Source: Bryoerythrophyllum caledonicum
Taxonomy: Eukaryota; Streptophyta; Bryopsida; Pottiales; Pottiaceae
DNA length: 64,000 nucleotides
NCBI GenBank assembly: GCA_963971425.1
Contig: OZ020516.1
Location: 124,001-188,000 of the forward strand
Direction of reading: 5' to 3'
Shown one piece after another: positions 2,652 to 64,000 of the stretch (positions within the stretch are counted from its first letter, which is position 1; each line of letters starts with the position of its first letter). A program made the translations under genes and the position numbers. The notes under the pieces were generated by a model that did not search any database, was not told where the DNA came from, and saw only the letters and a list, made by a program, of their open reading frames with translations.

Positions 2652-6137
<3,486 letters not shown>

Positions 6138-27649: not shown

Positions 27650-28125
27650 GAAAGGCCGTTTGCACCCCAACCCGAGAGCTTAGTCCCCAGGATTTGAACT
27701 CACCAGACTCTACGTACGTGCGTGGCCTCATGGATTATTGGGTTTGCAACCCTATCGTTAATTTACCCCGCTATAAATAATCTTTTCAACTATCTTTTTA
27801 ATCCTCTAATGCCTACAAGGCCCGGGTAGGTTCAATTTTGGTGCTTTTGCTCTTCTAACTCTTTCCACAATGGCCCATTGTCTCTCACATCCTTTGAAAG
27901 CAAATTTTGAGCTCCTCATTGGCTTTCCAATAAATGTCTCCAATCTCCAACCCATGCAGACTACACTGATTTTTGTGAAGTCGGGTTGTGTTCAAATGTA
28001 CCCATTGTGTAAATAAATTTCTACCTTATCTATTACACGCAAAGATTCTCACAGGTTTTCATGGTCCACTTAGGTGTTGAAGAGTTAACTTATTCATGAA
28101 CGGACATCCATACCTACGTTCACAT
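27650..28125. other. Unassigned spacer
   Basis: No gene. The minus strand at about 27655-27770 has a B-box-like GAGTTCAAATCC that could come from a tRNA-derived SINE, but I cannot define an A box, tail or duplications. Confidence 0.3.
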
Positions 28126-28233
28126 GCTGTCGTGTAAAGAAAGATTGATAACAACAACAGATCGAGAGTCCTAACCAACATCAAATAAACGAAAAACATA
28201 CACTAAAACAAGTATACGTAATACACCCTCAAG
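28126..28233. repeat. 108-bp direct repeat (outer copy)
   Basis: GCTGTCGTGTAAAGAAAGAT to CACCCTCAAG; repeated at 28593-28700 with about four differences. The two copies sandwich the left terminal repeat, giving an A-B-A arrangement that is not present at the right end. Confidence 0.85.
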
Positions 28234-28592
28234 GAATCACATGTGTTTTCCACAAGAAGTCAAGCGACACGCACTCCACAAGGGGAGAATCAACGAGTGC
28301 AACTAAAGTAGAGAATGCGGAGCTTTTACTAATGATAAACCATCACTTTACAAGCAATGAACTCACTAATCACTCTCTAACCTCACTCACAAAGCTTGAC
28401 TTGACAAAGACGTCAAGTCAAGGACGTGTGCGGCGCTATACGCACACGCAAATAACCCTAAGTGGATGAAAATCATCCACGGATGAAAACGATGCGCCGC
28501 CGTTCGTCCCTAAACACACGTAGATTAGTAACAAACTAATCTACGCTAAAATCTACGATACGGAGAGACCCTCGACGCCACGTCCCGTGACA
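28234..28592 (-). repeat. Terminal repeat, left (3') copy, with four hairpins
   Basis: 359 bp nearly identical to 37616-37974. On the minus strand it begins TGTCACGGGACG. It contains four successive perfect hairpins: 28395-28422 (11-bp stem, 6-nt loop), 28425-28448 (8-bp stem, 8-nt loop), 28462-28480 (8-bp stem, 3-nt loop) and 28519-28545 (11-bp stem, 5-nt loop). Confidence 0.8.
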
Positions 28593-28700
28593 GCTGTCGT
28601 GTAAAGAAAGATCGATAACCACAACAGATCGAGAGTCCTAACCAACATCAAATAAATGAAAAACATACACTAAAACAAGTATACGTAATACACCCTCAAG
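28593..28700. repeat. 108-bp direct repeat (inner copy)
   Basis: Second copy of the repeat at 28126-28233, lying between the 359-bp terminal repeat and the purine run (G7 on the minus strand at 28703-28709). If the purine run is the polypurine tract, the 3' LTR would begin in this segment. Confidence 0.85.
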
Positions 28701-28702
28701 TG

Positions 28703-28709
28703 CCCCCCC
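28703..28709 (-). other. Candidate polypurine tract
   Basis: Minus-strand CTAGGGGGGGCAC directly precedes TTGAGGGTGTATTACG, the start of the 108-bp repeat. A purine run next to the 3' LTR is the plus-strand primer in LTR elements; assignment is by position only. Confidence 0.45.
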
Positions 28710-29015
28710 TAGCGGATAAAGAGACCCTCTATCCAGCTAGGACCAAACAACACTAATAAGACTAAACGCCACGGTGATGTCGCTGCAACAACTGTACGCA
28801 TCCAGCCAAAGATGTCGCCGTCGTCGAATCAATAAGCATATGAAGAAGTAACAAAGAGATGGTAGGCCGGGTGCAATGTGAGCCCCATCTTTAATCGCCT
28901 TAGGCAATTTTGTTGCCAATCCCTTGGTCAATCTCCACGTTGCCTATCCCTGAACCGAAACCAGGAACTCCAACTGGATGGCAACGCACCACACAATGAC
29001 AAGTCTATGAGGAAT

Positions 29016-29675
29016 TCAAGCCGTTTCATCGGGTGAAACGTGACTCGAAGACCTCCGACAATGAGGGCAAGTCCAATCCCCGGACGGTAGAGTAGAGAGA
29101 GGCGACGTCAAGCAAGCCATATGCCAACCACGTTGGCAATGGTCACAAAGCAACATAGTAGCTGCACCTTTCTTCTCACCACACACAAAACACGGAAGAC
29201 CCTGTGGCACAATGGCCAACTCAAGATGCACGGAGCCATCAATGGGCAAATGGCAAGGTGCGCAGTTTTTGGAGTGCTCACGACACTCCCGGCCATCTTT
29301 GCCTTCCAGCAACAAGATGCCACTAGGCAACACATCATTCACACGAAGAATGGTGCGCCCAGCCTTGACGTCCAACGTCGTAGGTGCCTCACGCTGCAAA
29401 TAAACGTAATCTCCAGTGGAGAAACGCCGCAACTGAGGTCGATAAGCGCCGCTGCGAATGCGAGCGTACCGTAATGTGTCGCGGTGCTGAGCGATGGATA
29501 AATTCTCCATGGCCATTGGCATGGCCCGCTTAAAGAACTCCGCTAGGTCACGTAGACACTGGATCAAGACCTCTGGATCATCCAAGTCCACAATTGGGGC
29601 CAACTTCTCCCGTACAGAACTGGGTAGAATCGGCTCCCGTCCGTACAACAACTGATACGGACTGAAAGCGGCCAA
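29016..29675 (-). CDS. Integrase C-terminal part with terminal PHD finger
   Basis: 219-codon frame continuing the integrase after a 1-nt frameshift at about 29676-29680: SPYQLLYGREPILPSS is the usual post-catalytic segment of gypsy integrases. Residues 162-206 (29058-29192) form a PHD finger with Cys4-His-Cys3 spacing: C162, C165, C177, C180, H185, C188, C203, C206, including LLCDHCQRGWHMACL and WTCPHC. PHD fingers commonly read the histone H3 tail. Many gypsy integrases end in a chromodomain used for targeting, so a PHD finger in that place suggests targeting by another histone mark; this is inference. Confidence 0.88.
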   Translation of the reverse strand: MAAFSPYQLLYGREPILPSSVREKLAPIVDLDDPEVLIQCLRDLAEFFKRAMPMAMENLSIAQHRDTLRYARIRSGAYRPQLRRFSTGDYVYLQREAPTTLDVKAGRTILRVNDVLPSGILLLEGKDGRECREHSKNCAPCHLPIDGSVHLELAIVPQGLPCFVCGEKKGAATMLLCDHCQRGWHMACLTSPLSTLPSGDWTCPHCRRSSSHVSPDETA

Positions 29676-32146
29676 GAGGCCTGCCGGCTAAATCGGTATC
29701 CCATGGCGATCCATGGTATCATCAGATCCCAATCACAGTGGCCACCCTGAAGTAATCCATACTTCCGTAGTCCACGCTTGACGGTCTGAACCACACGCTC
29801 CGCCAAACCGTCCGCTTCCGGATGATCCCTAGAAGTGGTACGGTGGTCAATCAAAGCCTTGGGGCACAAAGCCTCGAAAGCACCAAGGAACTCACGCCCT
29901 TGGTCAGTCAACACCTCAGCTGGGGCTCCAAAACGAGCGAGCACCCGGTCAAGGAATGCCATGGCCGCCAACTCCGAGGAGTTCTCTGGTAATGCCACAA
30001 GCTCAATCCACTTGCTGAAGTGCTCCACCATCACCAACACGTACTTGGCTCCACGTGGGGTGACTACAAGTGGCCCGGCAAAATCAAGAGACCAACGGTA
30101 GCCCAAACCCATGATGGGCAAAGGCTGCAACTGTGGTGACAAGGTGTTGAAGCTGGATCTGACCCGATCACATACTTCACACCGTGAAACATATGTGGCG
30201 ACCTGCTGATACATGCCGGTCCACCAATATTGGTTGCGCAACATCGAATGAGCCCGCCGCACGCCAAAATGACCAAGGTCTTCGTGTACCTGCCTTACCA
30301 ACGAAGCCCTTTGATCCGGTCTGGGAACTATGCGCCTAGATCCATCCGGCCACAACCGAAATAGAAGGCCGTTTTCCCAACGGAACCTCGCTATCCGTTG
30401 TCCAACTCGATCGTGCTCCATGGCCGAAAGAGCGGGCGGAAGTGTGCCATGTTGCAGCTTGTGCAAGACTGGAATGTCTTCCCACACGTCGCCAACAACC
30501 TGGGCCTTGTCCGGTTCCTCATCCACTGCCATATCAGGCAACGTCGATGTGGATCCAGACATCAATGTGAGGTAGGCTGCTGTATGCCACCCCGGGACTG
30601 ACTCCCTGTCACAATCCCCATGCCACCTGGCACCAGTCAAATCCTCCTCCGATGGACTTGGATTGCGAGATAGACCATCCGCATCCAAGTTCGTGATGCC
30701 CGCCCGGTGTACAACCTCAAAATCATACTCTTGGAGCAACAAAGCCCACCTGGCAAGCTTGCCAGTAAGCTTGTCAGACTCCATGAGCCACTTTAAAGGC
30801 TGGTGGTCGGTCACCAAAGTAAAACGTTGTCCATACAAGTAGGGCCTAAAATGAGCTATGGCCCACACCGCGGCCAAGGCCTCCCCCTCAGAGGACGAAT
30901 AGTTGGACTCTGCGTTGTTGTTGCTCCTAGAAGCAAACGCCACAACGTAATCCCGTCCCTCATCATCCTTTTGAGTCAACATGGCTCCCAGTCCTACTGC
31001 ACTCCAATCTGTGTGCAAGTGGAAAGGCCGTGTAGCATCTGGACGCCGTAGTACAGGCGCTGAACTGAGCTTCAACTTCAAAGTAGCAAACGCCTGCTGT
31101 TGCTCGCGTCCCCAAGTCCATGGCTGATCCTTCTCCGTGAGAATAGTCAAAGGCTTGGCAATCAAGCTAAAGTTCTTGACAAACCGGCGATAGTAATTTG
31201 CCAAGCCAAGAAAAAGCTCGAAGACGTGACACGTCGATTGGGGTGGGATCTTCTGCAGCGCGTCAACCTTTGCCTGCTGCACGCCAAGACCTCCTGGAAC
31301 AATCATATGTCCCAAATATGGCAACCGATCGTGGAAGAACTTGTACTTGCCATGGTGCAAGCGCAATCCCCACTGTCGTAACCTCTCAAACACCACCTGA
31401 AGATGCCTCACATGCTCCTGTGGACTGCTACTAAAAATGATAATATCATCAATATAGCATCGGGTAAACGGTAAACCGGTCAACACCCGGTCCATCACCC
31501 TCTGAAACTTAGCGGGTGCATTCTTGAGGCCAAATGGAAGAAACTTCCAATGGTAGAGCTGATCTCTCCCATCCAGATCAACTCCCCAGAACGCAGTCTT
31601 CACCCGGTCTTCCACCATCAATGGTAACTGGTGGTAACCGGACCGCAAATCCAGAGTACTAAATACTCTGCCGTGTCCCACCGCATCAAACAACTCCTCT
31701 GGCGTGGGCATGGGATACCGATCCGACTTGGTCTTACAATTGACCGGTCTGTAATCCCGACACATCCGCTTCTCCGTCCAGTTGCCAAAGATGTCCTTCT
31801 TCGATGGCATCACCGTGGCACAAGCGTACTCGCCGTTGGAGAGCTCAATCAAACTGGCGGCCAACAACTCCTGACAACGAGTCTGAACCCCAACTTTCTC
31901 GGAGAGACTGAGCTTGTACGGTCGTCGGAAGATCGGATGGTCATCCTCCAACTGAATGTGAATCGGTTTGCCTCTATAGCCCTCCAAATCATGGAGACTA
32001 AAGGCAAAATAACTACGATACGAACGTATAAACGCTCGTACCCTTCGTGCCTCGGCACCAGTAAGATGTGGCCCCAAATCCAGAGGCCAATCATCAAACT
32101 CCGTGGTCTCCTTCTCCACCGTAGAAGACTCACCGCGTATCGGCAC
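29564..32146 (-). CDS. Pol: reverse transcriptase, RNase H, integrase
   Basis: 860-codon frame in the same frame as the upstream Gag-protease-DNMT ORF, separated from it by UAG at 32159-32161. RT runs about residues 70-300 with FSTLDLRSGYHQL, LPFGLKNAPAKFQ and catalytic CYIDDIIIFS (residues 230-239). RNase H follows with D380 (HLHTDWSAVG), SEGEALAAVW and D447 (VTDHQPLKWL). Integrase has the zinc-binding H621-H626-C656-C659 set and the catalytic D688 (WSLDFAGP), D748 (VLTDQGREF) and E783 (GLAERVVQT), a DD34E spacing. The last 37 codons are out of frame because of the shift near residue 824; the proper continuation is the next frame (29016-29675). Confidence 0.95.
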   Translation of the reverse strand: MPIRGESSTVEKETTEFDDWPLDLGPHLTGAEARRVRAFIRSYRSYFAFSLHDLEGYRGKPIHIQLEDDHPIFRRPYKLSLSEKVGVQTRCQELLAASLIELSNGEYACATVMPSKKDIFGNWTEKRMCRDYRPVNCKTKSDRYPMPTPEELFDAVGHGRVFSTLDLRSGYHQLPLMVEDRVKTAFWGVDLDGRDQLYHWKFLPFGLKNAPAKFQRVMDRVLTGLPFTRCYIDDIIIFSSSPQEHVRHLQVVFERLRQWGLRLHHGKYKFFHDRLPYLGHMIVPGGLGVQQAKVDALQKIPPQSTCHVFELFLGLANYYRRFVKNFSLIAKPLTILTEKDQPWTWGREQQQAFATLKLKLSSAPVLRRPDATRPFHLHTDWSAVGLGAMLTQKDDEGRDYVVAFASRSNNNAESNYSSSEGEALAAVWAIAHFRPYLYGQRFTLVTDHQPLKWLMESDKLTGKLARWALLLQEYDFEVVHRAGITNLDADGLSRNPSPSEEDLTGARWHGDCDRESVPGWHTAAYLTLMSGSTSTLPDMAVDEEPDKAQVVGDVWEDIPVLHKLQHGTLPPALSAMEHDRVGQRIARFRWENGLLFRLWPDGSRRIVPRPDQRASLVRQVHEDLGHFGVRRAHSMLRNQYWWTGMYQQVATYVSRCEVCDRVRSSFNTLSPQLQPLPIMGLGYRWSLDFAGPLVVTPRGAKYVLVMVEHFSKWIELVALPENSSELAAMAFLDRVLARFGAPAEVLTDQGREFLGAFEALCPKALIDHRTTSRDHPEADGLAERVVQTVKRGLRKYGLLQGGHCDWDLMIPWIAMGYRFSRQASWPLSVRISCCTDGSRFYPVLYGRSWPQLWTWMIQRS

Positions 32147-32152
32147 GGCCGG

Positions 32153-32161
32153 TGATTGCTA
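32153..32161 (-). promoter_or_regulatory. UAG-CAA-UCA stop-codon readthrough context between Gag-PR-DNMT and Pol
   Basis: The upstream ORF ends with TAG at 32159-32161 followed directly by CAA TCA. This fits UAG-CAR-YYA, the context that drives readthrough at the tobacco mosaic virus replicase stop. The Pol frame continues in the same frame with no other stop to 29564. Sequence and frame are directly visible; readthrough is inferred. Confidence 0.75.
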
Positions 32162-35100
32162 CTTGGTAGCAGAGAGGGCATTAATGCCCCCAGACCCCTC
32201 ACTCACAGAATCTACAGAAAATCCCGTATCGTGATGATAAAACTGGGAAAAGATATCTCGAGCATCCTCACGGCCAAAGTCCTCTGCCAAGGCTGCAAAG
32301 ACACGCTGAGCACAAAGCTCCTCAGCTGCATGTCTCTTCAATCGAAAAAGCAACTCCGCTTCCTCGATCTCTGTGAGATGTGGCACCGCTACCCCTTGAA
32401 CATCAGAGTCTGCCCCCAGCACGCGTGGATGGTCACTCAAACGGCGTTGAGCGGCGAAACAGAGGCCACATATCCAAACAAGGGTGTAGAGGTCAATGGC
32501 TTGATCCAAGAAACAACGGCGTTGGCCCTCAGAGATATCCGGTGCGGCGGTGGTGCCTGTCAAAAAGCCCATCGCCCGCTCCCTCTCATCGGCAGAAGGC
32601 TCCTCGGAAGTTTGGGAAGAAGAATCCCAAACCATGCCCGGACCGCGTGACTTGAAGGCAAAAGAGCCTGGATAGCACATCAAAGTGGGAAATGCCCCCC
32701 GAGTGAAACCAACGCGGTTGACCACCGCCAATGGTGGCTCATCATCCTTCGTAACCTCCGTGGAAACAAGGTGGTCGTCTAAAATGTCATCGACCTCACG
32801 GCGCATGGGCCGTTGCACTTGAGCAAGTGCAGAAGTGAGCGTCGTGGATGATGCCATGTTGGTCCAAATCCAACGTGGCCGATGGGCGTAAGATCCCAAC
32901 GTTGCGGCATCAACAAACGTAGGGGGACCAAGAAGGTGATGGATGTACGCCCCATCCTCACGCACTTTCGTCCGTGTATCCCCCAATGGGGGTACATTCT
33001 CAAAAATGTACCCCGGTGGTGTCGATTGGTGGGTAATCCACCACTGGACGAGCTTGAGCAAATCCGCAAAGAGACCCGACCGTGGATCATCCAAGCCACG
33101 TCCACTTCCCGCGCGTGAATGGCCTTGGCAAGGCCATCCGGCAATCACCAAGTCCACGTGACCTAACCGGCGAAGATCATCCTCACAGATCAACGTCACA
33201 TCACGTGGCAACTTGCCAAAACACCCTCGAATCGCAGAAGATGGTAACTGCTCTGGATACAACGCTAGAAGACGCTGAATGTGATGGTGAGCGGCACGGT
33301 TGGCTGCAAAGCCACTATCCACGTGGATATACCGTCGTACCTTGAGCCCGGCCTCCAACACAGCCGCGAGCCCCGTACCGATACCGACAAATAACTCGAC
33401 AAGGGTAATACCCTCATCCGATGGTCGCCACTGAATAGTACGAGCCAACAACGGAGTGGAAGAGTCCACTGAAGGCAGTGGAACATCAAGAGCATCCACG
33501 ATCTCTCCACTACGACAAGTGAGCTCCAACGGTGTCCCCCACGGCGGAAGCGGATCCTTGCAATGACGGGCAGGGATCTCCAATGGTCGGTGCTCGCGTG
33601 AATCCTCCACCACAGACATAAATGCATATGTCTCCTCCAAAAGTGAAGAAGCACACGACAAGTCTGATGCCAGAGCACTACACCCAAACATAGCGTCTAT
33701 CGTCGAAGTCACCGCGCTAGCTGCGAAGACTACGGGGATGAGCTCCTTCCTGCCATCACCGGCAGACCACCCAAGCCTAATCCAGGCCTCCTCCGTCCAG
33801 TTATCCACCCCAAATCCAAGTCGATATAGTGCCTGCTGGCCCACCAAAATATCGTAGTTGGTGGCGCCAGTAACAACGCACTGAAGGGAGACATGGGAGA
33901 ACAATGGACCAGATCCCATGCCAAACATCAACTGCAACGGATGTCGGGTGTAGCCCATGGCCTTCTCCGTCCCCCCAATCGATGTAACAATCGTGAATAG
34001 ACAAGGCTCGAGGTCCAAAGCACCTAGACCCAAATCCTGGGCTAGCTGCTTGCCAATCATCACTGGCTGAGCCTCGGAGTCCAACATAACACGTAGGGGG
34101 GTAGCTCGAATGGAGTTGCCATCCGTACGGCCTACCACCATGACTCCATCGTCATTCACCAAACGTACCACCCCTGGACGCACACTACGTCGCTCCCGTG
34201 CCGACCGGGCTGCAACGTCAGACAAATAAGCCACTCCAGAGATCAAGGCCCGATCCCCAGACGACTGTTCCATAGGTGTGGAAGTGGCATTGGCCTCGTA
34301 CGCGGAAATAGCCTCCGCCGCCAACTTGGCCCGCATTGCCACCAAATCCTCCTCAGTGGGTGGAGCAGTCACTGCTTGTGACACCTCCAACGACGGAATG
34401 GGCACCTTGCCTTCCAATATACTACCCGCCAAGTGGAATACACCGGTTGGTTGAAAATCCGGTGTGAGAAAGTCCACACCAGCAAACACCGGCAATTGCA
34501 ACACCTTATACGCCAAGGTGTGTGCAACATCTCCAGGACCGGAAGAAACCGGTGGGACCGGAATCGAAGTGGTAGCGGCAGTAGAAGTAGCCGCATCCGC
34601 GATGCTGAACGGAAGAGGTAGCCGGGACTGACCAATGTGGTCCGGCAAACCCGCATGGCGTGAACGACCGCTACTACCCGGCACAGTGGAAGAGGGTGCC
34701 ACCGCTTGTGTAATGGTCTGAGCACGAGTGGCAACCGCTGCCACCACCTCCCCCGAAGCGCCATACAAGTAGCGATCTAAGGCTGAAGATGAGCCATGAC
34801 CAGTCACCACAGGCCGTGTGTCTGCCACTTGCCCCAAAAAAACCATCGCGCTCATCTGCTTCTTCAGCTCCGCCAATTCGGATTGAAGTGACTTCACGGC
34901 ATCCGATCTAACAGCCGAAGATCCTGGGCGCTTCTCCGGGTGAAGAGAAAAGCAATTCTCATCACTGTGGCCAGGCTTGCCACGGTGAGAGCATGTCATA
35001 AGCTTCTTCCCCTTGCCTCCAGTCTTCTCCGTAAGCTTGGCTGCCTCGGTCTTGGGCTTGGCCTTCCTCGCCACTGCCTTCTTCTTCTTCGGACAATTGG

Positions 35101-35773
35101 GGTCCCCCTTGGTGTGACCGGCCTCTCCACAAGCCCAACAATGCACAACCTTTTCAGGTTGTGCTTCTGCCAAGCTACCAGCCGCCGTAGCAAGCTTCTT
35201 GGGCTTCAGAGCATCCATGAGCAACGTGACCAAGTCTGTGGCCTCGCTCATACCTAACGCCCGGTCAAGCGCTTCCACGTCGGCGAACGCCTGAGCCAAG
35301 GTCACATTGCCGTGGTACAGGAAGAGCAAATGCGGACTGATCAACTCTACCATCCGCTTGTCGAGCTTGGAGATAAAAATCTTCACAAGTTGGCGCTCCG
35401 TGAAGACATCACTAGCCTCCGCCGCCAACCGCGCCAACCGTGTGTACATGGTGCGTGGCGTGTCTTCCTTCTCACGGCGGAAGTCCTGGATGCGGTGCAT
35501 CTGATCGCACCGAAACCCCCTATACTCCACCTCCAGATGTGCCATGAACTGCGCCAGAGGATCGAAGGCTGGCGGGTTGCCAACCGCCACCAATGCCGCA
35601 CGTGTGGCTACGGCCAAACGAGACATGGCCCTCATGCCAGCTCGTTTGCCCACAATGGCAACACCCTTGCCCTTGGAGTCCTCACCGAGGAAACTCTCCT
35701 CCTCCATGGGCTCCCCGGTGGAAGTCGAGAGTTGGGCAACCGCCCTCTCCTTGAGTGCAGTGACCAACTCCAC
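32159..35773 (-). CDS. Gag (C-terminal part), protease and DNMT3-like cytosine methyltransferase
   Basis: 1204 codons; the nominal first codon is not a true start, since the frame continues upstream across a UAG at 35777-35779. Residues 60-180 are a Gag core (FMAHLEVEYRGF, ARLAAEASDVFTERQLVKIF), residues 212-227 a zinc knuckle (CWACGEAGHTKGDPNC), with a degenerate second one near 261-274. The protease lies at about 555-655 (RVMLDSEAQPVMIG, later YDILVGQQAL); the usual D-S/T-G triad reads DSE here, which should disable it. Residues about 789-1104 are a C5-cytosine methyltransferase: motif I LVELFVGIGTGLA, motif IV GWPCQGHSRAG with catalytic C882, motif VI FENVPP with E925, motif VIII HRPRW, and a C-terminal GFLTGTT...LDQAIDLYTLVW block. 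The HRxRxxW pattern and the order resemble DNMT3/DRM enzymes more than DNMT1. The tail (1105-1204) has no domain I recognise. Confidence 0.9.
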   Translation of the reverse strand: MELVTALKERAVAQLSTSTGEPMEEESFLGEDSKGKGVAIVGKRAGMRAMSRLAVATRAALVAVGNPPAFDPLAQFMAHLEVEYRGFRCDQMHRIQDFRREKEDTPRTMYTRLARLAAEASDVFTERQLVKIFISKLDKRMVELISPHLLFLYHGNVTLAQAFADVEALDRALGMSEATDLVTLLMDALKPKKLATAAGSLAEAQPEKVVHCWACGEAGHTKGDPNCPKKKKAVARKAKPKTEAAKLTEKTGGKGKKLMTCSHRGKPGHSDENCFSLHPEKRPGSSAVRSDAVKSLQSELAELKKQMSAMVFLGQVADTRPVVTGHGSSSALDRYLYGASGEVVAAVATRAQTITQAVAPSSTVPGSSGRSRHAGLPDHIGQSRLPLPFSIADAATSTAATTSIPVPPVSSGPGDVAHTLAYKVLQLPVFAGVDFLTPDFQPTGVFHLAGSILEGKVPIPSLEVSQAVTAPPTEEDLVAMRAKLAAEAISAYEANATSTPMEQSSGDRALISGVAYLSDVAARSARERRSVRPGVVRLVNDDGVMVVGRTDGNSIRATPLRVMLDSEAQPVMIGKQLAQDLGLGALDLEPCLFTIVTSIGGTEKAMGYTRHPLQLMFGMGSGPLFSHVSLQCVVTGATNYDILVGQQALYRLGFGVDNWTEEAWIRLGWSAGDGRKELIPVVFAASAVTSTIDAMFGCSALASDLSCASSLLEETYAFMSVVEDSREHRPLEIPARHCKDPLPPWGTPLELTCRSGEIVDALDVPLPSVDSSTPLLARTIQWRPSDEGITLVELFVGIGTGLAAVLEAGLKVRRYIHVDSGFAANRAAHHHIQRLLALYPEQLPSSAIRGCFGKLPRDVTLICEDDLRRLGHVDLVIAGWPCQGHSRAGSGRGLDDPRSGLFADLLKLVQWWITHQSTPPGYIFENVPPLGDTRTKVREDGAYIHHLLGPPTFVDAATLGSYAHRPRWIWTNMASSTTLTSALAQVQRPMRREVDDILDDHLVSTEVTKDDEPPLAVVNRVGFTRGAFPTLMCYPGSFAFKSRGPGMVWDSSSQTSEEPSADERERAMGFLTGTTAAPDISEGQRRCFLDQAIDLYTLVWICGLCFAAQRRLSDHPRVLGADSDVQGVAVPHLTEIEEAELLFRLKRHAAEELCAQRVFAALAEDFGREDARDIFSQFYHHDTGFSVDSVSEGSGGINALSATK
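32460..33412 (-). other. DNA cytosine-5 methyltransferase domain within the retrotransposon polyprotein
   Basis: Motif I (S-adenosylmethionine binding) begins at 33409; the catalytic Cys codon of the Pro-Cys-Gln motif is 33128-33130; the ENV Glu codon (residue 925) is 32999-33001; the Arg pair of motif VIII is at about 32873-32881. All the main catalytic residues are kept and the domain has no internal stop in this copy. It would transfer a methyl group to cytosine C5. A target recognition region is present between motif VIII and the C-terminal block, but its specificity cannot be read. Confidence 0.9.
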
Positions 35774-35776
35774 ACG

Positions 35777-36214
35777 CTAGCGCCAATACTCCTCAACCGG
35801 GCGCAACTCTGCCTCGTGCTGCGTGGTCCACCTCCCATATGTCTGAAGTGCCTCTAGCTCCAAATGCCGGGGCAAAAGCTCGAACGCGTACCAATCGTTG
35901 AACGACGGCATCCGCTGGCGCTTCTCCTTCATCCAAGTTTGGAATCGGAGACGCCAATCGGGTTGGGAGATGCCCCCAGCCCGTCCCGAGAACTTGTCTC
36001 GCACGACATGACGGTGATCGTCCTCCATGTCGTCAAACGTGCCCACACTCCAGACCCGAAGCCTACGGTCGGTATCCAACGCCAAAACAGGCTCAAAAGC
36101 CTCGTCGGTATCCGACCCTGGCCCAAAGTCTGTGGTGGAAGCACTCTCCGAGTGGTTTGGTGAGGAAGAGCGGTAATACCGACTCCGGGTACTCACCTTA
36201 AACAAAAAAACCAC
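35777..36214 (-). pseudogene. Gag N-terminal part, cut by an in-frame UAG
   Basis: 145 codons in the same frame as the main Gag ORF, ending ...VEEYWR and UAG (35777-35779), after which the Gag frame resumes at once. The first true ATG is at FDDMEDDHRHVV, about residue 62; upstream in frame there is a TAG. A TTTAAG/GTGAGT donor-like site lies near the left of the frame. The stop's following codon is CGU, which is not a known readthrough context, so a point mutation is more likely than recoding. Confidence 0.65.
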
Positions 36215-37615
36215 CTCGGGATCTATCTACGGGTACTATCTAAAGGGTAAGGGTACGAACGGGCAACCTGCACCTGCAAAATCACCAAGCTGTGTGGATT
36301 ACCGGTCATCACCTCCGGCTACCACAGGTCCAACCACATCCTCCCACATAGAAAGGTCTTGCCGGCCATAAATCCGACTTCACTCCTACGGTACCCTATC
36401 ACAAACTAGAACAACAAGAAATGGAGCCACTGGAAAATACCGGCAACAAGCCCGCAACACGGGGGAGGTACCGCACAAGAATCCAGAAATCAAAACCGGA
36501 TCCTCTCTCCCAACAACATAATAGCAGGAAAATGAAAGAGACAGCGCCACTGGCACACGCCTGCAGTGGATGCCTCAAAGTCGCAAACTTGCAAATCAAA
36601 GAGAAACACTAAAAGTGTTCCCCCCTAACGTCTAAAATTAAGGGAGTAGTGGGGATTGACCGTGGTGTTTAAAAACACTATCCATCCAATGAAATCACAT
36701 ACATTAGTGGATAATCACGACAAACGCCAAACTAATGCTAAAATTAGGTCAAATGGCAAAAACCCTAACTATAAGCATAAATGTCACTCACATCCGAGTA
36801 ACACTGCCTTTGAAATCTACTCCCAAAGTTTAGCACTATCTTTTTTTCTTTATAGATCACAAAACATGTGATTGTTTTCGGCCCTCGTGAAAAAACTAGC
36901 AAAATATTTTTTTTTTATAAACCAATTTTTTCTAATGCCACTACTCTTAGAATTTCTTCACGAATCCAAATCCGTTGTCGGAATCGCAAAATACTGAAAA
37001 TTGCAAAATCTAAAATTCTAACATCCAACTCCAGGGACTCTCTGAAATTTGGTGCAAAAACTAGTGCAATTAGGGGTTCGGCACGCTTTAAGGGTACCTG
37101 TTGGAAATTGGACCTTGCCGCATTAATGTGCCCCGACCCTTGCCCGTGGCCCGCTTTGAGTGCAGCCCTCGCACGATTGTGGGTCCTTGTCGACCTGTTC
37201 TCGGCAGTTGACTTCGACTTGATGGGCTGTCCCGATTCTCGGCAGTTGACTCCGCCTTGGTGGACCACTCAACGGGTCTTGAATCGTGTACAATCTGTCC
37301 CGATTCTCTCAATCGCAGCCGCTGCGTTTTCCAAGTTCCCAACGTCTCCTCGGCGTTCTCTACAAACTGCGCAGCTTTACTCGACTGACCAACTCCTTGC
37401 TCGGCCACCGCCTCCAGCCAGAGAGTCCAGAGACTCTCTCAAAAACAATCTCAAAGTGGACACCAACTTAAAACACTAAATTTCATTGATTATTGCAAAA
37501 TATTAAGTACTAAGTAATCCATTATTCTTCTACTCCTCTTCCCATCTTTTACAAACTCTTCTAATGCAAAAATGGTGATAAAAAGAGAAGAAATAAGAAA
37601 GGGTCTTTGTCAAGT
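36215..37615 (-). other. 5' leader of the gypsy-DNMT element
   Basis: 1.4 kb between the 5' terminal repeat and Gag. No gene is supported. Contains a CTCGGCAGTTGACT direct repeat (about 37199-37212 and 37238-37251) and several T-rich runs. No TGGTATCAGAGC-type primer site found next to the repeat. Confidence 0.4.
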
Positions 37616-37974
37616 GAATCACATGTGTTTTCCACAAGAAGTCAAGCGACACGCACTCCACAAGGGGAGAATCAACGAGTGCAACTAAAGTAGAGAATGC
37701 GGAGCTTTCACTAATGATAAACCATCACTTTACAAGCAATGAACTCACTAATCACTCTCTAACCTCACTCACAAAGCTTGACTTGACAAAGACGTCAAGT
37801 CAAGGACGTGTGCGGCGCTATACGCACACGCAAACAACCCTAAGTGGATGAAAATCATCCACGGATGAAAACGATGCGCCGCCGTTCGTCCCTAAACACA
37901 CGTAGATTAGTAACAAACTAATCTACGCTAAAATCTATGATACGGAGAGATCCTCGACGCCACGTCCCATGACA
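37616..37974 (-). repeat. Terminal repeat, right (5') copy
   Basis: Matches 28234-28592 with five differences seen by eye, all C/T or G/A. All four hairpins are intact (37777-37927). Lacks the 108-bp side repeats seen at the left copy. Confidence 0.8.
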
Positions 37975-42741: not shown

Positions 42742-44402
42742 GTTGTGTTCTGGTGATCTTACTCGTCCTCTTCGTTCAGCCTGCAACCTTGCCCTCGTGC
42801 TCTTCGTGGTCCTATCGTCTTCGTGTTCTGGTGATCTTGCTCGTCCTCTTCGTTAAGCTCGCGACCTCGCCCTCTTGCTCTTCGTGGTCCTGTCGTCTCT
42901 GTATTCTGGTGATCTTGCTCGTCCACTTCGTTCAGCTCGCGACCTCGCCTCTTGCTCTTCGTGGTCCTATCGTCTTTGTGTTCTGGTGATCTTGCTCGTC
43001 CTCTTCGTTTAGCTCGCGATCTGGCCCTCTTTCTCTTCGTAGATTTGTCGTCTTCGTGTTCCGGTGGTCTTGCTTGTCCTCTTCGTTCAGCTCGCGACCT
43101 CGCCCTCTTGCTCTTCGTGGTCCTATCGTCTCCGTGTTCTGGTGATCTTGCTCGTCCTCTTCAATCAGCTCGCGACCTCGCCCTCTTGCTCTTCGTGGTC
43201 CTGTCGTCTTCGTATTCTAGTGATCTTGCTCGTCCTCTTCGTTCAGCTTGCGACCTCGCCCTCTTGCTCTTCGTGGTCCTGTCATCTTTGTGTTCTAGTG
43301 ATCTTGCTCGTCCACTTCGTTCAGCTCGCGACCTCGCCCTCTTGCTCTTCGTGGTCCTGTCGTCTTCGTGTTCTGATGATCTTGCTCGTCCCCTTCGTTC
43401 AGCTCACAACCTCGCCCACTTGCTCTTCGTGGTCTTGTTGTCTTCGTTCTCTGGTGATATTGCTCGTCGTCTTCGTGCTCCCGCTCGCGACCTCGCCCTC
43501 TTGCTCTTCGTGGTCCTGTTGTCTTCAAGTTTTCGTGATCTTGCTTGTCCTCTTCGTTCAGCTCGCGACCTCGCCCTCCTACTCTTCGTGGTCGTGTCGT
43601 GTTTGTGTTCTAGTGATCTTGCTCGTCCTCTTCGTTCAGCTTGCGACGTGGCCTCTTGCTCTTCGTGGTCCTGTGGTCTTCGTGTTCTAGTGATCTTGCT
43701 CGTTCCCTTCTTTCAGCTGGCGATCTCGCCCTCTTTCTCTTCGTGGACCTGTTGTCTTCGTGTTCTAGTGATCTTGCTCGTCCTCTTCGTTCAGCTTGTG
43801 ACCTCGCCGTCTTGCTCTTCGTGGTCGTGTCGTGTTTGTGTTCTGGTGATCTTGCTCGTCCTCTTCGTTCAGCTCGCGACCTCGCCTTCTTGCTCTTCGT
43901 GGTCCTGTCGTCTTCGTGTTCTCGTGATCTTGCTCGTCCTCTTTCTTAAGCTCGCGACCTCGCCCTCTTGCTCTTCGTGGTCCTGTCGTCTTCATGTTCT
44001 GGTGATCTTGCTCGTGTTCTTGGTTCAGCTCGCGACCTCGCCCTCTTGCTCTTCGTGGTCCTGTCGTCTTCGTGTTCAAGTGATCTTGCTCTTCCTCTTC
44101 GTTCAGCTTGCGACCTCGCCTGTTGCTCTTCGTGGTCTTGTCGTGTTCGTGTTTAGGTGATCTTGCTCGTCCTCTTCGTTCAGCTCGCGACCTCGCCCTC
44201 TTGCTCTTCGTGATCCAGTCGTCTTCGTGTTCTAGTGATCTTGCTCGTCTTCTTCGTTCAGCTCGCGACCTCGCCTGTTGCTCTTCGTGGTCTTGTCGTG
44301 TTCGTGTTAAGGTGATCTTGCTCGTCCTCTTCGTTCAGCTCGCGACCTCGCCCTCTTGCTCTTCGTGGTCCTGTCGTCTTCGTATTCTGGTGATCTTGCT
44401 TC
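42742..44402 (+). repeat. 78-bp tandem array I (about 21 units)
   Basis: Head-to-tail units built on GTTCTGGTGATCTTGCTCGT, CCTCTTCGTTCAGCTCGCGA, CCTCGCCCTCTTGCTCTTCG, TGGTCCTGTCGTCTTCGT; some units are a few bases shorter or longer. 78 is a multiple of three, so frames stay open for hundreds of codons on both strands; these are not genes. The unit splits into three related 26-mers. Confidence 0.93.
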
Positions 44403-45093
44403 GTATAAATAATAATTATACGTGATACCACATATAGGAGATGGAGTTGTAAGAAGAAATCATATGCAAAGAACTAAAAAACAACATCAATTGACACAAC
44501 TAGAACATAAATATTTATATTCTTGTCCACCTATAGTATAGGATGGTGATGCCTAAAAAAATAACCATGGGATAGTGAAGGAGACCCCGGTCCCCAATCA
44601 ATATGAATTTGAAAGACTCTTATTATCACCTACACATGAATGCTGGTAACGGCGGCCCTGTTGTAGTTCCCATCTTCAAAACATTTAAATATGCAAATGT
44701 CCTTTATCATTTGTGAAGGCATTGCTAATAATAAACTTCCTCACCATCTCACAATTTTGAATTTTTCCGCGGTAATGGGCATCTCTTATCATTTTCATTA
44801 TTGTACTTGACTACCTTCGGCTTTTCAATTGCATTTAAACAACATTAATTCCACGGCAATAGGATATATACTTCAACTAACAATATCTATTTTTCCTTTA
44901 TAATGTTAATATCCTACCACAGTTATAGGATCACGAGACAAAAATTAGTTATTTTACTTGAGAAAGACGCACAACTTTCGGCCTTCAAAGTTAACAAAAC
45001 CAAAAAAAAACTAAAAAATTAAAGGTACTTCTCTGCTCACCGCTCACCGCTCACGTCGACTGCTCACCGACCGCTCACATGGTCAAGTTCTTG
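44403..45093. other. AT-rich spacer between arrays
   Basis: No gene. A short GCTCACCG-type repeat lies at 45035-45080, next to the second array. Confidence 0.45.
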
Positions 45094-46982
45094 TCCTATC
45101 GTCTTCGTGTTCTGGTGATCTTGCTCGTCCTCTTCGTTTAGCTCGCGATCTGGCCCTCTTTCTCTTCGTGGATTTGTCGTCTTCGTGTTCCGGTGGTCTT
45201 GCATGTCCTCTTCGTTCAGCTCGCGACCTCGCCCTCTTGCTCTTCGTGGTCCTGTTGTCTCCGTGTTCTGGTGATCTTGCTCGTCCTCTTGGTTCAGCTC
45301 GCGACCTCGCCCTCTTGCTCTTCGTGGTCCTGTCGTCTTCGTGTTCTAGTCATCTAACTCGTCCTCTTCGTTCAGCTCGCGACCTCGCCCTCTTGCTCTT
45401 CGTGGTCTTGTCGTCTTCGTTCTCTAGTGATATTGCTCGTCGTCTTCGTGCTCCCGCTCGCGACCTCGCCCTCTTGCTTTTCGTGGTCCTGTTGTCTTCA
45501 AGTTCTCGTGATCTTGCTCGTCCTCTTCATTCAGCTCGCGACCTCACCCTCTTGCTCTTCGTCGTCCTGTCGTCTTCGTGTTCTGATGATCTTGCTCGTC
45601 CCCTTCGTTCAGCTCGCAACCTCGCCCACTTGCTCTTTGTGGTCTTGTTGTCTTCGTTCTCTAGTGATATTGCTCGTCGTCTTCGTGCTCCCGCTCGCGA
45701 CCTCGCCCTCTTGCTTTTCGTGGTCCTGTTGTCTTCAAGTTCTCGTGATCTTGCTCGTCCTCTTCGTTCAGCTCGCGACCTCGCCCTCCTACTCTTCGTG
45801 GTCGTGTCGTGTTCGTGTTGTGGTGATCTTGCTCGTCCTCTTCGTTCAGCTCGCGACCTCGCTTCTTGCTCTTCGTGGTCATGTGGTCTTCGTGTTCTAC
45901 TGATCTTGCTTGTTCCCTTCTTTCAGCTGGCCATCTCGCCCTCTTTCTCTTCGTGGACCTGTTGTCTTCATGTTCTAGTGATCTTGCTCGTCCTCTTCGT
46001 TCAGCTCGCGACCTCGCCTTCTTGCTCTTCGTGGTCCTGTCGTCTCCGTGTTCTAGTGATCTTGCTCGTCCCCTTCGTTCAGCTCGCAACCTCGCCCACT
46101 TGCTCTTCGTGGTCTTGTTGTCTTCGTTCTCTGGTGATATTGCTCGTCGTCTTCGTGCCACCGCTCCCGACCTCGCCCTCTTGCTCTTCGTGGTCCTGTT
46201 GTCTTCAAGTTCTCGTGATCTTGCTCGTCCTCTTCGTTTAGCTCGCGACCTCGCCCTCCTACTCTTCGTGGTCCTGTCGTCACTGTGTTGTGGTGATCTT
46301 GCTCGTCCTCTTCGTTCAGCTCGCGACCTCGCCTCTTGCTCTTCGTGGTCGTGTGGTCTTCGTGTTCTAGTGATCTTGCTCGTTCCGTTCTTTCAGCTGG
46401 CGATCTCGCCCTCTTTCTCTTCGTGGACCTGTTGTCTTCGTGTTCTGGTGGTCTTGCTCGTCCTCTTCGTTCAGCTCGTGACCTCGCCCTCTTGCTCTTT
46501 GTGGTCGTGTCGTGTTCGTGTTCGGGTGATCTTGCTCGTCCTCTTCGTTCAGCTCGCGACCTCGCCTTCTTGCTCTTCGTGGTCCTGTCGTCTCTGTGTT
46601 CTGGTGATCTTGCTCGTCCTCTTCGTTCAGCTCGCGACCTCGCCTCTTGCTCTTCGTGGTCTTGTCGTGTTCGTGTTCTGGTGATCTTGCTCGTGTTCTT
46701 GGTTCAGCTCGCGAGCTCGCCCTCTTGCTCTTCGTGGTCCTGTCGTCTTCGTGTTCAAGTGATCTTGCTTGTCCTCTTCGTTCAGCTCGCGACCTCGCCC
46801 TCTTGCTCTTCGTGGTCCTATCGTCTCCGTGTTCTAGTGATCTTGCTCGTCCTCTTCGTTCAGCTCGCGACCTCGCCCTCTTGCTCTTCGTGGTCCTATC
46901 GTCTCCGTGTTCTAGTGATCTTGCTCGTCCTCTTCGTTCAGCTCGCAACCTCGCCCTCTTGCTCTTCGTGGTCCTGTCGTAC
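45094..46982 (+). repeat. 78-bp tandem array II (about 24 units)
   Basis: Same unit family as array I, including variant units with CTCGTCGTCTTCGTGCTCCC that recur in both arrays, so blocks of units have been amplified together. The right edge joins the conserved LTR part at 46983. Confidence 0.93.
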
Positions 46983-47985: not shown

Positions 47986-48797
47986 TCAAAAGTGAAGGTT
48001 GTGAGCAAATCTTACCTTGTACTCTTTGCATCGGTTGCCTGATGTTCTCGTGGGGAAATCTTCGCCGTTTAGGGTTTGGAATTGAATGGAGTTGTTGGGA
48101 AAGACCTCCTTCACTACGGCGAGGAAAATCTTTTCGGGATTGAGAGCGATACCGGTGCGTCTACACCGTTCAAAACTTTGCCTCACGCAGGTGAGTTGGT
48201 GGTCCTTCGTGGACTGGGTGCTAAAATCATCAATGAATACCGTCATTGATTTATGCAAGAGGTTTGAGAAGGCATAGGTCATGGCCCTCTGGAATGCGGA
48301 AGGGGCATTACAAAGCCCAAAAGGCATGACCAAATAAATGAACGTGCCCCACAGGGTAGTGAAGGTGGTCTTGTGATAGTCCTCGGGAACAATGGAGATT
48401 TGATTGTAGCCCGAGTAGCCATCCATAAACGTGTAGAGCTCATGACCACCTACCTCCTCTAAGTGGTCTTGAAAAATGGCAAGGGAAAGTGGTCTTTTTG
48501 GGTGTGGTGGTTGAGTTTCCTATAGTCCATGCACACCTATAGCTTCCCATTCTTCTTTTTAACCAACACCATAGGGGAGACCCAATTGGATATTTCCACG
48601 GGTTTAATGAACTCCGCTTGGAGTAGCTTCTCCAACTCTGCCTTAACAATCAGTTGCAGATTAGGATTCATACGCCGCTCTTTTTGTCTAATGGGAGTAG
48701 TGCCCGGGAGAAGGGGGATGTGATGTTGTGTCACCGCCGGGGGAATGCCCTTGAGGTCTTTGTATGACCACGCAAAAATGTCCCCAAATTCGACCAT
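47986..48797 (-). pseudogene. Element I RT, broken and fused to integrase end by deletion
   Basis: KAELEKLLQAEFIKPVEIS (RT start), a frameshift/stop at about 48440-48540, then GYSGYNQISIVPEDYHKT, FIYLVMPFGLCNAPSAFQ and the catalytic FIDDFS. After NPEKIFLAVV the sequence passes at about 48116 straight to EVFPNNSIQFQTLNGEDF, which in Element II lies at the end of integrase. Confidence 0.85.
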
Positions 48798-48806
48798 GAG
48801 CGACTT

Positions 48807-49577
48807 CTATTTCACCATCTCCCCCTCGGTCAATCCAACTCCCACCTTTATACTACAGACTTCTTCATCCTCATGAGAGACCACCATCAATTTCCAGTCA
48901 TCGTGATGTACGTGTGGTTGTTGGGTAGGTCCCTTGTACCAATCATTCGGAACTTGGGGGTACGTTGCCCCCGAACCACTAGCTAGTATACCGGTGGATG
49001 TTCTCCTAAAGTGGAGAGATGGGTTGAGAGGGGCTTCGTCCCCCAACTCCTCCAATTTGTCCCCTTGTGTGCCATCAACATCCATTCCTAATACCGCCGC
49101 GGGTTCTAAGTCATCAAGGAGGGAAACCAGGCTAAGTTCTAACCCGGGTTCCTCCTCAACCAGCTCACTCTCCATGAAATGCACGGACATGGCTTCATCC
49201 ACGCTCGAGGTGGGGTGCTCCCTCAACCAGTCTACAAATTCCCCGGTGGGAACCCACTCGTAAAGGCCCGGTCCCATGCTCTTGAACGGCATCACGTTGG
49301 CCCTCGAGGGTTGGGCTCTATCCACCGCCTTGTGTGGTGCGAACCTCACTCTCTTGGGAAGTTCTTTTGTCAACACTTCTTGCGACTCATCCTCCGAAGG
49401 GACCATACAATCATGGCATAGTCCTAGCCTACTCGATTGGATATGGATCGTAGTAGGATTCTCAGGGGGCCCGTAGGTGATGCGTGGCTTTGGTCCTCCC
49501 CATTCCACCGTGGCATTGGCGATTCGCAACCACGGTCTACCTAGTAGCAAGGGATATGCCTCCTTGTTGGAGTGCAT
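48807..49577 (-). pseudogene. Element I protease-RT linker
   Basis: 256 codons colinear with Element II 63217-62660, including LLLGRPWLRIANATVEWGGP (end of protease) and ASGSGATYPQVPNDWYKGP. Cut off from the protease by TAA at about 49626 and from RT by TAG at about 48804. Confidence 0.8.
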
Positions 49578-49625
49578 TCGAATGACTTGGAAGGTGAGGG
49601 AGTACTCTATTCCCCCCGTGGTAAC

Positions 49626-50402
49626 TTAACAACCACTAATTTGGCCTAACGGAGCCTCCGAGCTTTGATTAGCCATTTTGATGATGTATGGTGATGGTTC
49701 CATGATGTCTAGGCCTAATTTCTCCATAGTGGAGAGGGGCATGATGTTCAAACCACTACCACCGTCGACTAGTACGTTGGGTACCACCTTATCTACGATT
49801 GAGACCTCAATTTGAACCGCCTTGACTTCGATATTGGGGTGTGCCGATTTTACACGAGCCGCCAACCTAACCTTTGCCTTAGGCCTCCGCTTCACCGGGG
49901 TGCCCGACCTAAGGACCTTCCTCATGGGTGGGGATACCTTCAGTAGTTGGGCTATGGTGATGTCCGCCTTGAGACGACTCAAATCCGCCCATAAATCGTA
50001 AGGCCCTTCTCCCACGTGTTCCTTGACACGTGGGAATGTGTTCACTGCGGGACTAGGGACTGGTGGACCTTCCCATGGTTCTTGGGAAGTGGATAATGGT
50101 GTTCGGGGCCTAGGTGTCCCATGGGAGGACCTTAAGTTGGCCCGTTTAGTGCCTTCCACCGCCTCCTTGGTGGTGTCGTTTAGGTCGGAGAAGTGAGGTG
50201 GGTCCTCCTCCGAGGTATCACTATCCTCCGGTGTGGGTGGAGGAGGACTCGAGTACCTAGGTTCTCGCCGGTTGGATCGAGTTTGGACCACCAACGCCGG
50301 TAATTCACAAGACCTTGCCCCCTCGGTCGTGCTAACCTCGTGGAAGACTACATTGAGCTCAGTAAGGGATGGGGTGTGCGTGGACACAACCTCACTTGAC
50401 AT
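49626..50402 (-). CDS. Element I retropepsin-like protease segment
   Basis: 258 codons. NVLVDGGSGLNIMPLSTMEK is the active-site region with D-G-G in place of D-T/S-G, as in many Tat-like plant elements. The frame ends at a TAA just after QISGC, where Element II continues. Confidence 0.8.
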   Translation of the reverse strand: MSSEVVSTHTPSLTELNVVFHEVSTTEGARSCELPALVVQTRSNRREPRYSSPPPPTPEDSDTSEEDPPHFSDLNDTTKEAVEGTKRANLRSSHGTPRPRTPLSTSQEPWEGPPVPSPAVNTFPRVKEHVGEGPYDLWADLSRLKADITIAQLLKVSPPMRKVLRSGTPVKRRPKAKVRLAARVKSAHPNIEVKAVQIEVSIVDKVVPNVLVDGGSGLNIMPLSTMEKLGLDIMEPSPYIIKMANQSSEAPLGQISGC

Positions 50403-52540: not shown

Positions 52541-53884
52541 ACGGTACAAATCCTTACTGTGGGGCTGACCTAGGCTTCAACTTGATAAAAGGTGGGATTC
52601 CTTGGTATCCCCTTCCACCTTTTACCACTTTGAGCTAGGCATCACCCACTAGGAGGAAAACGACATAATAACGGGACGGCATGCAACAATGTATGTATAC
52701 AATGTTATCACCATGAAGAAGACATACCTCGCAACCTCGCCCTCTTGCTCTTCGTGGTCCTCTCGTCTTCATGTTCTGGTGGTCTTGCTCGTCCTCTTCG
52801 TTCAGCTCGTGACCTCGCCCTCTTGCTCTTCGTGGTCCTATCGTCTCCGTGTTCTAGTGATCTTGCTCGTCCTCTTCGTTCAGCTCGCGACCTCGCCCTC
52901 TTGCTCTTCGTGGTCCTATCGTCTCCGTGTTCTAGTGATCTTGCTCGTCCTCTTCGTTCAGCTCGCAACCTCGCCCTCTTGCTCTTCGTGGTCCTGTCGT
53001 ACCTAATTCACTCTTCCAGTGGCCGGGGCTTCCGGCTCTCCCTCTCTCAGTCCTCTCCCTTCGCACATTCCTTCCATACCTGAATAATCCCCCTCTCCAG
53101 GGGGTAACCCCCCAGCCTTGCTTTGTTCCCATGGGTGTTCCCCGCCGCCTTTGGCCCTTCTTCCATTAATGACTCCCTTCTTACAAAGCCTATTAACCCC
53201 ATGACTACTAATTCCGTGCCACCCTTGCATTAACAAAAGTGGGTGTCCCACTAACCAAGGAATATCTAAATCTAACTTTAACTCCATGCCACATGGTGCG
53301 TGCATGACCTCCAATAAGTGAGCCATTAAGGCTATTTTCAAGTTACAAAAAAACACTACTCTACTTAGCTCAAATTCCCTTTACTTGGAGGAATTCCTAT
53401 TTTTACTTAGTGATTGGTGAGGAGTTTGCCAAGCCTTTTGGACCCTTTCAACTCCTTTTTTAAGGGCTTTGTAAGCCCCCACATTTTTTCTTTCTCCCCA
53501 CCGTCATTCTTCTTCTTTTTTCCTAATTTTTCCCCGTGATTTCCTCACCGTGGCCAATTGCGGTCCCCGATGCGATAGGAGGTAAATTTGTCTCCACCAC
53601 TTCTATTTCTACTTTTCTTTTCTATTGTTTTCCTTTCTTTTTTCCTTTTCTATTTTTTCCTTTATTTTTCCCTTTCTATTCATTTTTTGGTTAACTTCAT
53701 AAAATCCGTGGTTGCCAATAAATGGCTCCTATTTGAGGAATTAGCAAATGGAACGGCTACTTAGCCCTTTTAATCAAAAAAACCATGAGCTAACACATGG
53801 GTTAACCTCATTCCACTACTTGTTAAAGTTAATGGACACGATGCGTGGCCCATTCGTCACCGTGAGCCGTTTTCGCGGCTCACA
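52541..53884 (-). repeat. Element I 5' LTR
   Basis: Starts on the minus strand at 53884 (TGTGAGCCGCGAAAACG) and probably ends at about 52541 next to the primer site. The 53003-53884 part matches 46983-47864. The 52541-52732 part is not found beside the 3' copy, so the 3' LTR has lost or rearranged that end. The outer flank begins TTCAT. Confidence 0.75.
52733..53002 (+). repeat. 78-bp tandem array III (about 3.5 units)
   Basis: Same unit as arrays I and II. It sits inside the 5' LTR of Element I, between the U5-like part (52541-52732) and the conserved LTR part. Confidence 0.92.
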
Positions 53885-63198: not shown

Positions 63199-63216
63199 CC
63201 GTTTAGGAGGCTCCTT

Positions 63217-63945: not shown

Positions 63946-64000
63946 GGGTGTTCGAGACCTAGGTATCCCACGGGGGGACTCGAAGTTGGCTCGTTTAGTG

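Follow-up and report, generated by a model that had tools for sequence, protein, structure and literature searches.

The moss Bryoerythrophyllum caledonicum genome assembly contains an abundant family of Ty3/gypsy-type retrotransposons of which a DNMT3-like cytosine methyltransferase (DNMT) is a regular trait, and one copy of this family lies within the stretch of 64,000 nucleotides analysed here (contig OZ020516.1, positions 124,001 to 188,000), hereafter the window. Positions 28128-37974 on the minus strand of the window constitute a single element of 9.8 kb with the order Gag, protease (PR), DNMT, an in-frame UAG, reverse transcriptase (RT), RNase H (RH), integrase (IN) and PHD finger. This copy is damaged at three sites (gag contains a stop, the protease motif is altered and the pol frame is shifted), and its DNMT frame is open. 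That a gypsy retrotransposon encodes a DNMT3-like domain had been proposed in an initial annotation of the window, and is borne out by Pfam, profile, fold and motif order. The reading favoured here is that the window holds a damaged copy of a gypsy family with a DNMT3-type enzyme in its Gag-protease polyprotein, which would methylate the element's own new DNA; on sequence evidence, the chances for and against this reading are about equal.

The methyltransferase domain in the window frame matches the Pfam DNA_methylase profile (E = 3.6e-10), DNMT3 is its closest match by profile and by fold, and its motifs follow a linear order, on which ground the permuted arrangement of DRM proteins was rejected. 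By profile, structural model and motif order, the domain is classed as DNMT3-like. Across 15 aligned relatives, the PCQ, EN and HRxRxxWTN columns do not vary; the V of the initially annotated ENV does. There are 44 relatives at E <= 1e-3 among 7987 scored candidates, and these relatives, together with 120 places in the same genome, indicate that the domain match is not due to chance. Gag, zinc knuckle, protease region and methyltransferase share one uninterrupted frame (Table 1), as initially annotated; the Pfam matches to the zinc knuckle (E = 0.049) and the protease (E = 0.12) on this frame are both weak, and Pfam protease calls are present in some relatives. The gag gene starts near 36214, Pol continues past the UAG in unchanged frame, and the pol frame is broken 3' of the integrase, between approximately 29567 and 29687, with the PHD finger beyond the break. 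Membership in the gypsy group is indicated by the PR-RT-RH-IN order with RT, RH and IN of gypsy type; two identical terminal long terminal repeats (LTRs) were not found: in 10 of 11 copies the 5' end has one repeat unit (A), and the 3' end has B-A-B or more units.

The 437-Mb genome contains at least 120 DNMT places (the window's own included; scored out of 2220 candidates) that are 77-100% identical to the window, and 67 of the 120 listed have no internal stops. By a route independent of the DNMT, 150 PHD matches were listed (scored of 1526 candidates); for 87 of them, and for 46 of the 50 best, a listed DNMT match lies no more than 8 kb upstream and on the same strand. Eight of the other 63 PHD matches were inspected: seven have a broken or partial DNMT, and one (L134) has lost its DNMT by an internal deletion that also removed the end of PR. 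Ten further copies, picked by DNMT matches, all have Gag-PR-DNMT and IN-PHD, and nine of them have the full order; copy c14a lacks RT and most of RH. A genome search for copies of the same order, which the initial annotation had suggested, reproduced its placement of the DNMT between the protease and UAG-Pol. The initial annotation had also anticipated three objections: an assembly error or a one-off insertion, rejected on the 120 scored places, and copies free of the domain, of which there is one among the eight PHD copies inspected, the other seven having a broken or partial DNMT. The ten copies fall into two subfamilies, with DNMTs approximately 91-96% (subfamily 1) and 50% (subfamily 2) identical to that of the window. 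Among viral contigs, 22 loci matched, 24-45% identical over parts; among other genome contigs there were 53 loci, of which only L074 (CADCWO010000201.1; 92% identical) is a close relative. L074 is a self-overlapping 9.3-kb contig in a cyanobacterial metagenome bin, with a DNMT 93% identical to that of the window, and is probably eukaryotic contamination.

The stop before Pol is UAG in all 11 copies (the window and the ten others), followed by CAATCA in subfamily 1 or CAACCA in subfamily 2. Both fit UAG-CARYYA, which is the type I stop codon readthrough motif (PMC3542737). At 19 further loci, the first stop after the DNMT is UAG-CARYYA in 7 and an earlier stop in 8; three loci end before any stop and one lacks the DNMT end. 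L074 also has UAG-CAATCA, and its Pol frame, PHD finger included, runs uninterrupted for 1047 codons. Because the DNMT lies 5' of this conserved context, it is predicted to be made at Gag level, and Pol at a small fraction of that level.

Ratios of nonsynonymous to synonymous substitution rates (dN/dS) were calculated by the Nei-Gojobori method for 101 of 105 subfamily-1 pairs (four with dS <= 0.01 were left out) and for subfamily 2 with one of its 10 loci left out. The median for the DNMT in subfamily 1 is 0.32 (101 pairs). In subfamily 2, DNMT ratios are 0.06-0.62 within clusters and 0.03-0.06 between two diverged clusters, the latter being rough because dS is near saturation (1.7-2.7). Among four subfamily-1 copies, dN/dS is 0.06-0.36 for RT and 0.06-0.21 for IN. 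On these ratios, the DNMT is under purifying selection. The window copy seems to be mosaic, its breakpoint lying close to where the DNMT begins, at approximately 33.2-33.6 kb of the window, because identity to three sister copies steps from 79-93% 5' of the DNMT where aligned (0-60% in part of the leader) to 92-99% from element position ~4800 onward, and because dS between the window copy and copy c7b is 0.009 in the DNMT, 0.42 in PR and 0.57 in Gag. Close to the breakpoint itself, identity to the three sister copies increases from 84-92% to 92-99%.

Relatives were surveyed in 165 proteins: the window's own, the 44 relatives at E <= 1e-3, and the best 120 of 2784 from a second search. The DNMT is located 5' of RT or on a PR-DNMT frame in 42 of these proteins (the window's own included), and between RH and IN or directly before IN in 13; two have the DNMT only. 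These two arrangements separate in a tree of retroelement DNMTs (41 and 11 full-length rows, support 100/92; 8 partial rows left out). In a tree of RT-RH, for which 87 rows passed the length rule (86 of the 165 proteins and the window), all six RH-DNMT-IN rows fall into one starred branch, which they share with three rows that gave no DNMT match. Separation in the one tree and the single branch in the other make each arrangement look like a lineage of its own, and the trees are compatible both with one capture followed by a move and with two captures. Named hosts of elements with DNMT include Marchantia polymorpha, Calypogeia fissa and Closterium; among the matches listed, the RH-DNMT-IN arrangement has no named host. 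Another 41 of the 165 proteins, including rows from Klebsormidium and Haematococcus, have RT-RH-IN-PHD with no DNMT on the same open reading frame (ORF), and in two RH-DNMT-IN proteins the PHD finger is followed by a Tudor domain of PTM/DIR17 type. The nearest solved PHD fingers are those of CHD4, PHF12, KMT2-type proteins, KDM5 and UHRF1, several of which bind the unmodified tail of histone H3.

The ends were located in all 11 copies. The element starts with TGTC (TGTG in c14a) and ends with GACA, and target duplications of 4 bp lie outside these ends, perfect in 10 of 11 copies and matching at 3 of 4 bases in the window (GCAA/GCAT). Ten copies have the order A1-internal-B1-A2-B2, the split direct repeats (A-internal-B-A-B) characteristic of DIRS/Ngaro elements; c9a has two extra units, and c1a is A-internal-B, without A2-B2. 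No phage integrase domain, indicative of the tyrosine recombinase of DIRS/Ngaro elements, was found by Pfam (E <= 1) in four element ORFs; the integrase found there is rve. Wherever present, the B1-A2 junction is GACA-GC-TGTC, a palindrome that resembles a pair of element ends separated by two additional bases. Immediately 5' of B1 is a purine tract, and immediately 3' of A1 is the candidate primer site. The LTR is B-A as seen from inside and A-B as seen from the integrase ends; canonical reverse transcription would yield B-A-internal-B-A, of which the integrated form is a circular permutation. It would arise most simply from a two-unit circle opened at a single GACA-GC-TGTC site, as though a DDE integrase cleaved a circular donor within its LTR. 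The L074 assembly is a closed circle that has a single B-A unit and a 127-bp end overlap; collapse of the repeats in assembly would account for this equally well.

The 13 nucleotides directly 3' of A1 can pair at 13 of 13 positions, in 11 of 11 copies, with a segment that starts 148-178 nucleotides before the end of A1. The candidate site differs among subfamily 1 (ACTTGACAAAGAC), subfamily 2 (ACTTGAGAAAGAT) and L074 (ACTTGACAAAGAT), with a matching partner in each, and the pairing is thus preserved across three sequence variants by covariation. When A1 was shuffled 1000 times by mononucleotides, matches reached at most 10 (window) or 11 (c7a) nucleotides. This site is a candidate primer binding site for self-priming.

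Table 1. Features of the retrotransposon and its flanks (window coordinates)
Feature	Position	Strand	Remarks
5' target-site flank GCAA	37975..37978	-	3' flank GCAT at 28124-28127, one mismatch
Repeat unit A1, 359 bp, TGTC start	37616..37974	-	
13-nt segment within A1, complementary to putative primer binding site	37781..37793	-	
Putative self-priming primer binding site, directly 3' of A1	37603..37615	-	13/13 pairs, 11/11 copies
gag, first part	35780..36214	-	cut by in-frame stop 35777-35779
Open frame Gag (rest)-zinc knuckle-PR-DNMT, 1205 codons	32162..35776	-	
Protease region	33677..34216	-	motif DSE in window copy; D-S/T-G in relatives
DNMT3-like cytosine methyltransferase domain	32387..33439	-	core 32462-33376
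UAG stop	32159..32161	-	then CAATCA (32153-32158), CARYYA type I readthrough context
Reverse transcriptase	31259..32068	-	
RNase H	30659..31138	-	
DDE integrase (H2C2 + rve)	29669..30478	-	
PHD finger, Pol end	29058..29192	-	Pfam E 1.8e-10
Polypurine-like tract AGGGGGGGCA, directly 5' of B1	28701..28710	-	
Repeat unit B1, 108 bp, GACA-GC end	28593..28700	-	
Repeat unit A2	28234..28592	-	B1-A2 junction GACA-GC-TGTC
Repeat unit B2	28128..28233	-	GACA is the element end

In the favoured reading, most ribosomes would stop at the UAG, and the DNMT would be made and packaged at Gag level; occasional readthrough would supply RT, IN and the PHD finger. Reverse transcription would be primed on the element's own RNA, and the DNMT, in the particle or on exit from it, would methylate cytosines of the new double-stranded DNA and perhaps of the target site. 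The integrase would be guided by the PHD finger, whose closest solved relatives include proteins that bind the unmodified tail of histone H3, and would insert DNA with ends produced by cleavage within the LTR; a circle carrying two repeat units would be the simplest donor. The most likely benefit would be that a new copy arrives already methylated, and hence is tolerated in silent chromatin. A more specific proposal, that a circular two-unit intermediate is integrated at its internal GACA-GC-TGTC site instead of a linear cDNA at its ends, with the Gag-level DNMT3 writing on the donor circle and the integrase PHD finger reading target chromatin, in a system old enough to comprise two lineages, is offered tentatively as a possibility that falls short of an even chance.

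Several observations weigh against self-methylation or its details. No clear sign of CpG decay, as a footprint of self-methylation, was seen in the element, the rest of the window or four further stretches: the ratio of observed to expected CpG is 0.86 in the element and 0.72 in the rest of the window, and 0.80, 0.82, 0.89 and 0.56 in the four further stretches (element and some flank), with 0.69 in flank stretches. In yeast, the methyltransferase domain of KnitGypsy, a comparable element of Klebsormidium nitens, gave no methylation, a result that its authors called inconclusive (PMC5890265). DNMT3 entries (21.8-27.6) and HhaI/HaeIII-type entries (22.0-24.4) overlap in the VIA listing, whose 50 rows contain no DNMT1/CMT chain, an absence that excludes nothing. 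The subfamily-1 dN/dS values extend from 0.11 to 1.56 (101 pairs), and the window/c7b pair, which was left out, has 2.15 on a dS of 0.009. In the minimum-energy RNA fold of the end of A1, the 13-nt segment is in a local hairpin and the primer site is paired elsewhere. The missing and extra units of c1a and c9a may also come from recombination after insertion.

Other roles for the domain must be considered. The enzyme might act on RNA: cytosines in the element's genomic RNA or in the primer duplex would be methylated at packaging, to the benefit of stability or priming; being encoded next to Gag, it would be with RNA in the particle, and DNMT2-type enzymes, which have the same fold, act on RNA. 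An RNA target is nevertheless unlikely, for DNMT3, a DNA enzyme, ranks above DNMT2 by profile and by fold. Alternatively, the enzyme may be aimed at the host or at competitors, methylating host chromatin or rival elements or competing with host DNMTs, and the product of at least 120 copies could act in trans; the Gag-PR fusion would favour confinement to the particle, and this target too is judged improbable. It is quite doubtful that the domain persists because Gag needs it for DNA binding or structure, with catalysis dispensable: RT and IN are under constraint of similar order, so that constraint alone does not single out catalysis, but the catalytic PCQ, EN and HRxRxxW are invariant in 15 of 15 rows. 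As for the ends, the split repeats could record recombination or tandem insertion after ordinary integration of an LTR element, as the variable number of units in c1a and c9a might suggest; this is very unlikely, given that 10 of 11 copies, at unrelated sites, have the B-A-B end, with 4-bp duplications outside it (perfect in 10 of 11), and that the same repeat arrangement is described for KnitGypsy-Dnmt3 (PMC5890265).

Transposons are usually the victims of DNA methylation; this family apparently keeps a DNMT of its own under purifying selection and pairs it with a PHD finger. The many recent copies in this genome thereby offer a direct test of what a retrotransposon gains from methylating DNA. 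The structure of the ends would also be a rare case of a DDE integrase acting at an internal LTR site, between LTR and DIRS-type elements.

Other methyltransferases and repeats were noted in the window and the assembly. The genome's one full-length match to PF00145 (L001) was considered as kin of the window domain and rejected, having no match to it at 1e-5 and lying in bacterial-looking DNA. This DNA (G000 C14:16014858-16018817), inside a 22-Mb contig, contains by ORF reading a transposase-like ORF and a bacterial-type m5C methyltransferase, and may reflect transfer or assembly contamination. At 2-2875 of the window (minus strand), a retroelement frame contains RT, then PCIF1_WW (PF12237, 4.8e-9), then RH, an order also found at L135 1517-3799 (PF12237, 2.7e-10). 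PCIF1 is a cap m6Am methyltransferase, and with this match the window may contain a second retroelement-borne domain of methyltransferase type. Tandem arrays of 78 bp and 185 bp and a long GTTGTT microsatellite are found at 42745-46980, 52728-53000, 58025-58853 and 5150-5987, and a 2-kb duplicate (48114-50151 and 61962-64000, 88% identical) lies amid parts of other gypsy elements. The assembly has two different plastid rbcL genes (G000 C821, C894, C590), which may mean that it includes DNA from another plant or alga.

As the initial annotation acknowledged, retrotransposon-borne DNMTs are not new, having been reported in 2018 from dinoflagellates and Klebsormidium (de Mendoza et al., PMC5890265). 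The main text of that report describes KnitGypsy-Dnmt3 of K. nitens as having gypsy domains and a Dnmt3-like domain in a polyprotein, DIRS-like repeats and a DNMT under purifying selection; it does not mention a PHD finger, readthrough, primer binding, target site, circular forms or direct repeats, and uses "stop codon" once, on another matter (PMC5890265). The class of gypsy elements with Dnmt3 and DIRS-like repeats is thus already known. No row named Klebsormidium is among the 44 relatives at E <= 1e-3, and the K. nitens Pol rows branch elsewhere in the Pol tree. SymbioDIRS-Dnmt3 and SymbioLINE-Dnmt of Symbiodinium are likewise retrotransposon-borne, and SymbioDIRS-Dnmt3 domains methylated CG in yeast (PMC5890265); they belong to elements of LINE (long interspersed) or tyrosine-recombinase type, whereas the window element has a DDE integrase. 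DIRS/Ngaro elements share the A-internal-B-A-B order (PMC5890265) but use a tyrosine recombinase, in contrast to the DDE integrase, TGTC/GACA ends and 4-bp target duplications found here. Tf1/sushi and Tcn1 chromoviruses, the latter found in moss and club-moss, self-prime without a tRNA primer, by an arrangement of the kind that the candidate 13-nt site would represent, but carry a chromodomain where the window element has a PHD finger, and the word "methyltransferase" is absent from the main text of the Tcn1 paper (PMC6317226). Orchid gypsy elements have likewise fixed an extra nucleic-acid-modifying enzyme, the m6A demethylase AlkB, but that enzyme demethylates RNA, is encoded by an additional ORF and is no DNA methyltransferase (PMC9289625). 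A 2025 paper refers to streptophyte and dinoflagellate cases and names LTR Copia and DIRS (PMC12344493). Literature searches, judged mostly by titles and the starts of abstracts and covering few subscription papers and no preprints, found no further report of a gypsy-borne DNMT and, as far as titles and opening lines of abstracts show, none of a gypsy integrase with a PHD finger. As far as these searches reach, what is new in the family is the DNMT before a conserved readthrough UAG, the PHD finger after the integrase, the two lineages with the DNMT at different places, the permuted A-internal-B-A-B repeats with TGTC...GACA ends and 4-bp duplications, and the candidate 13-nt self-priming site.
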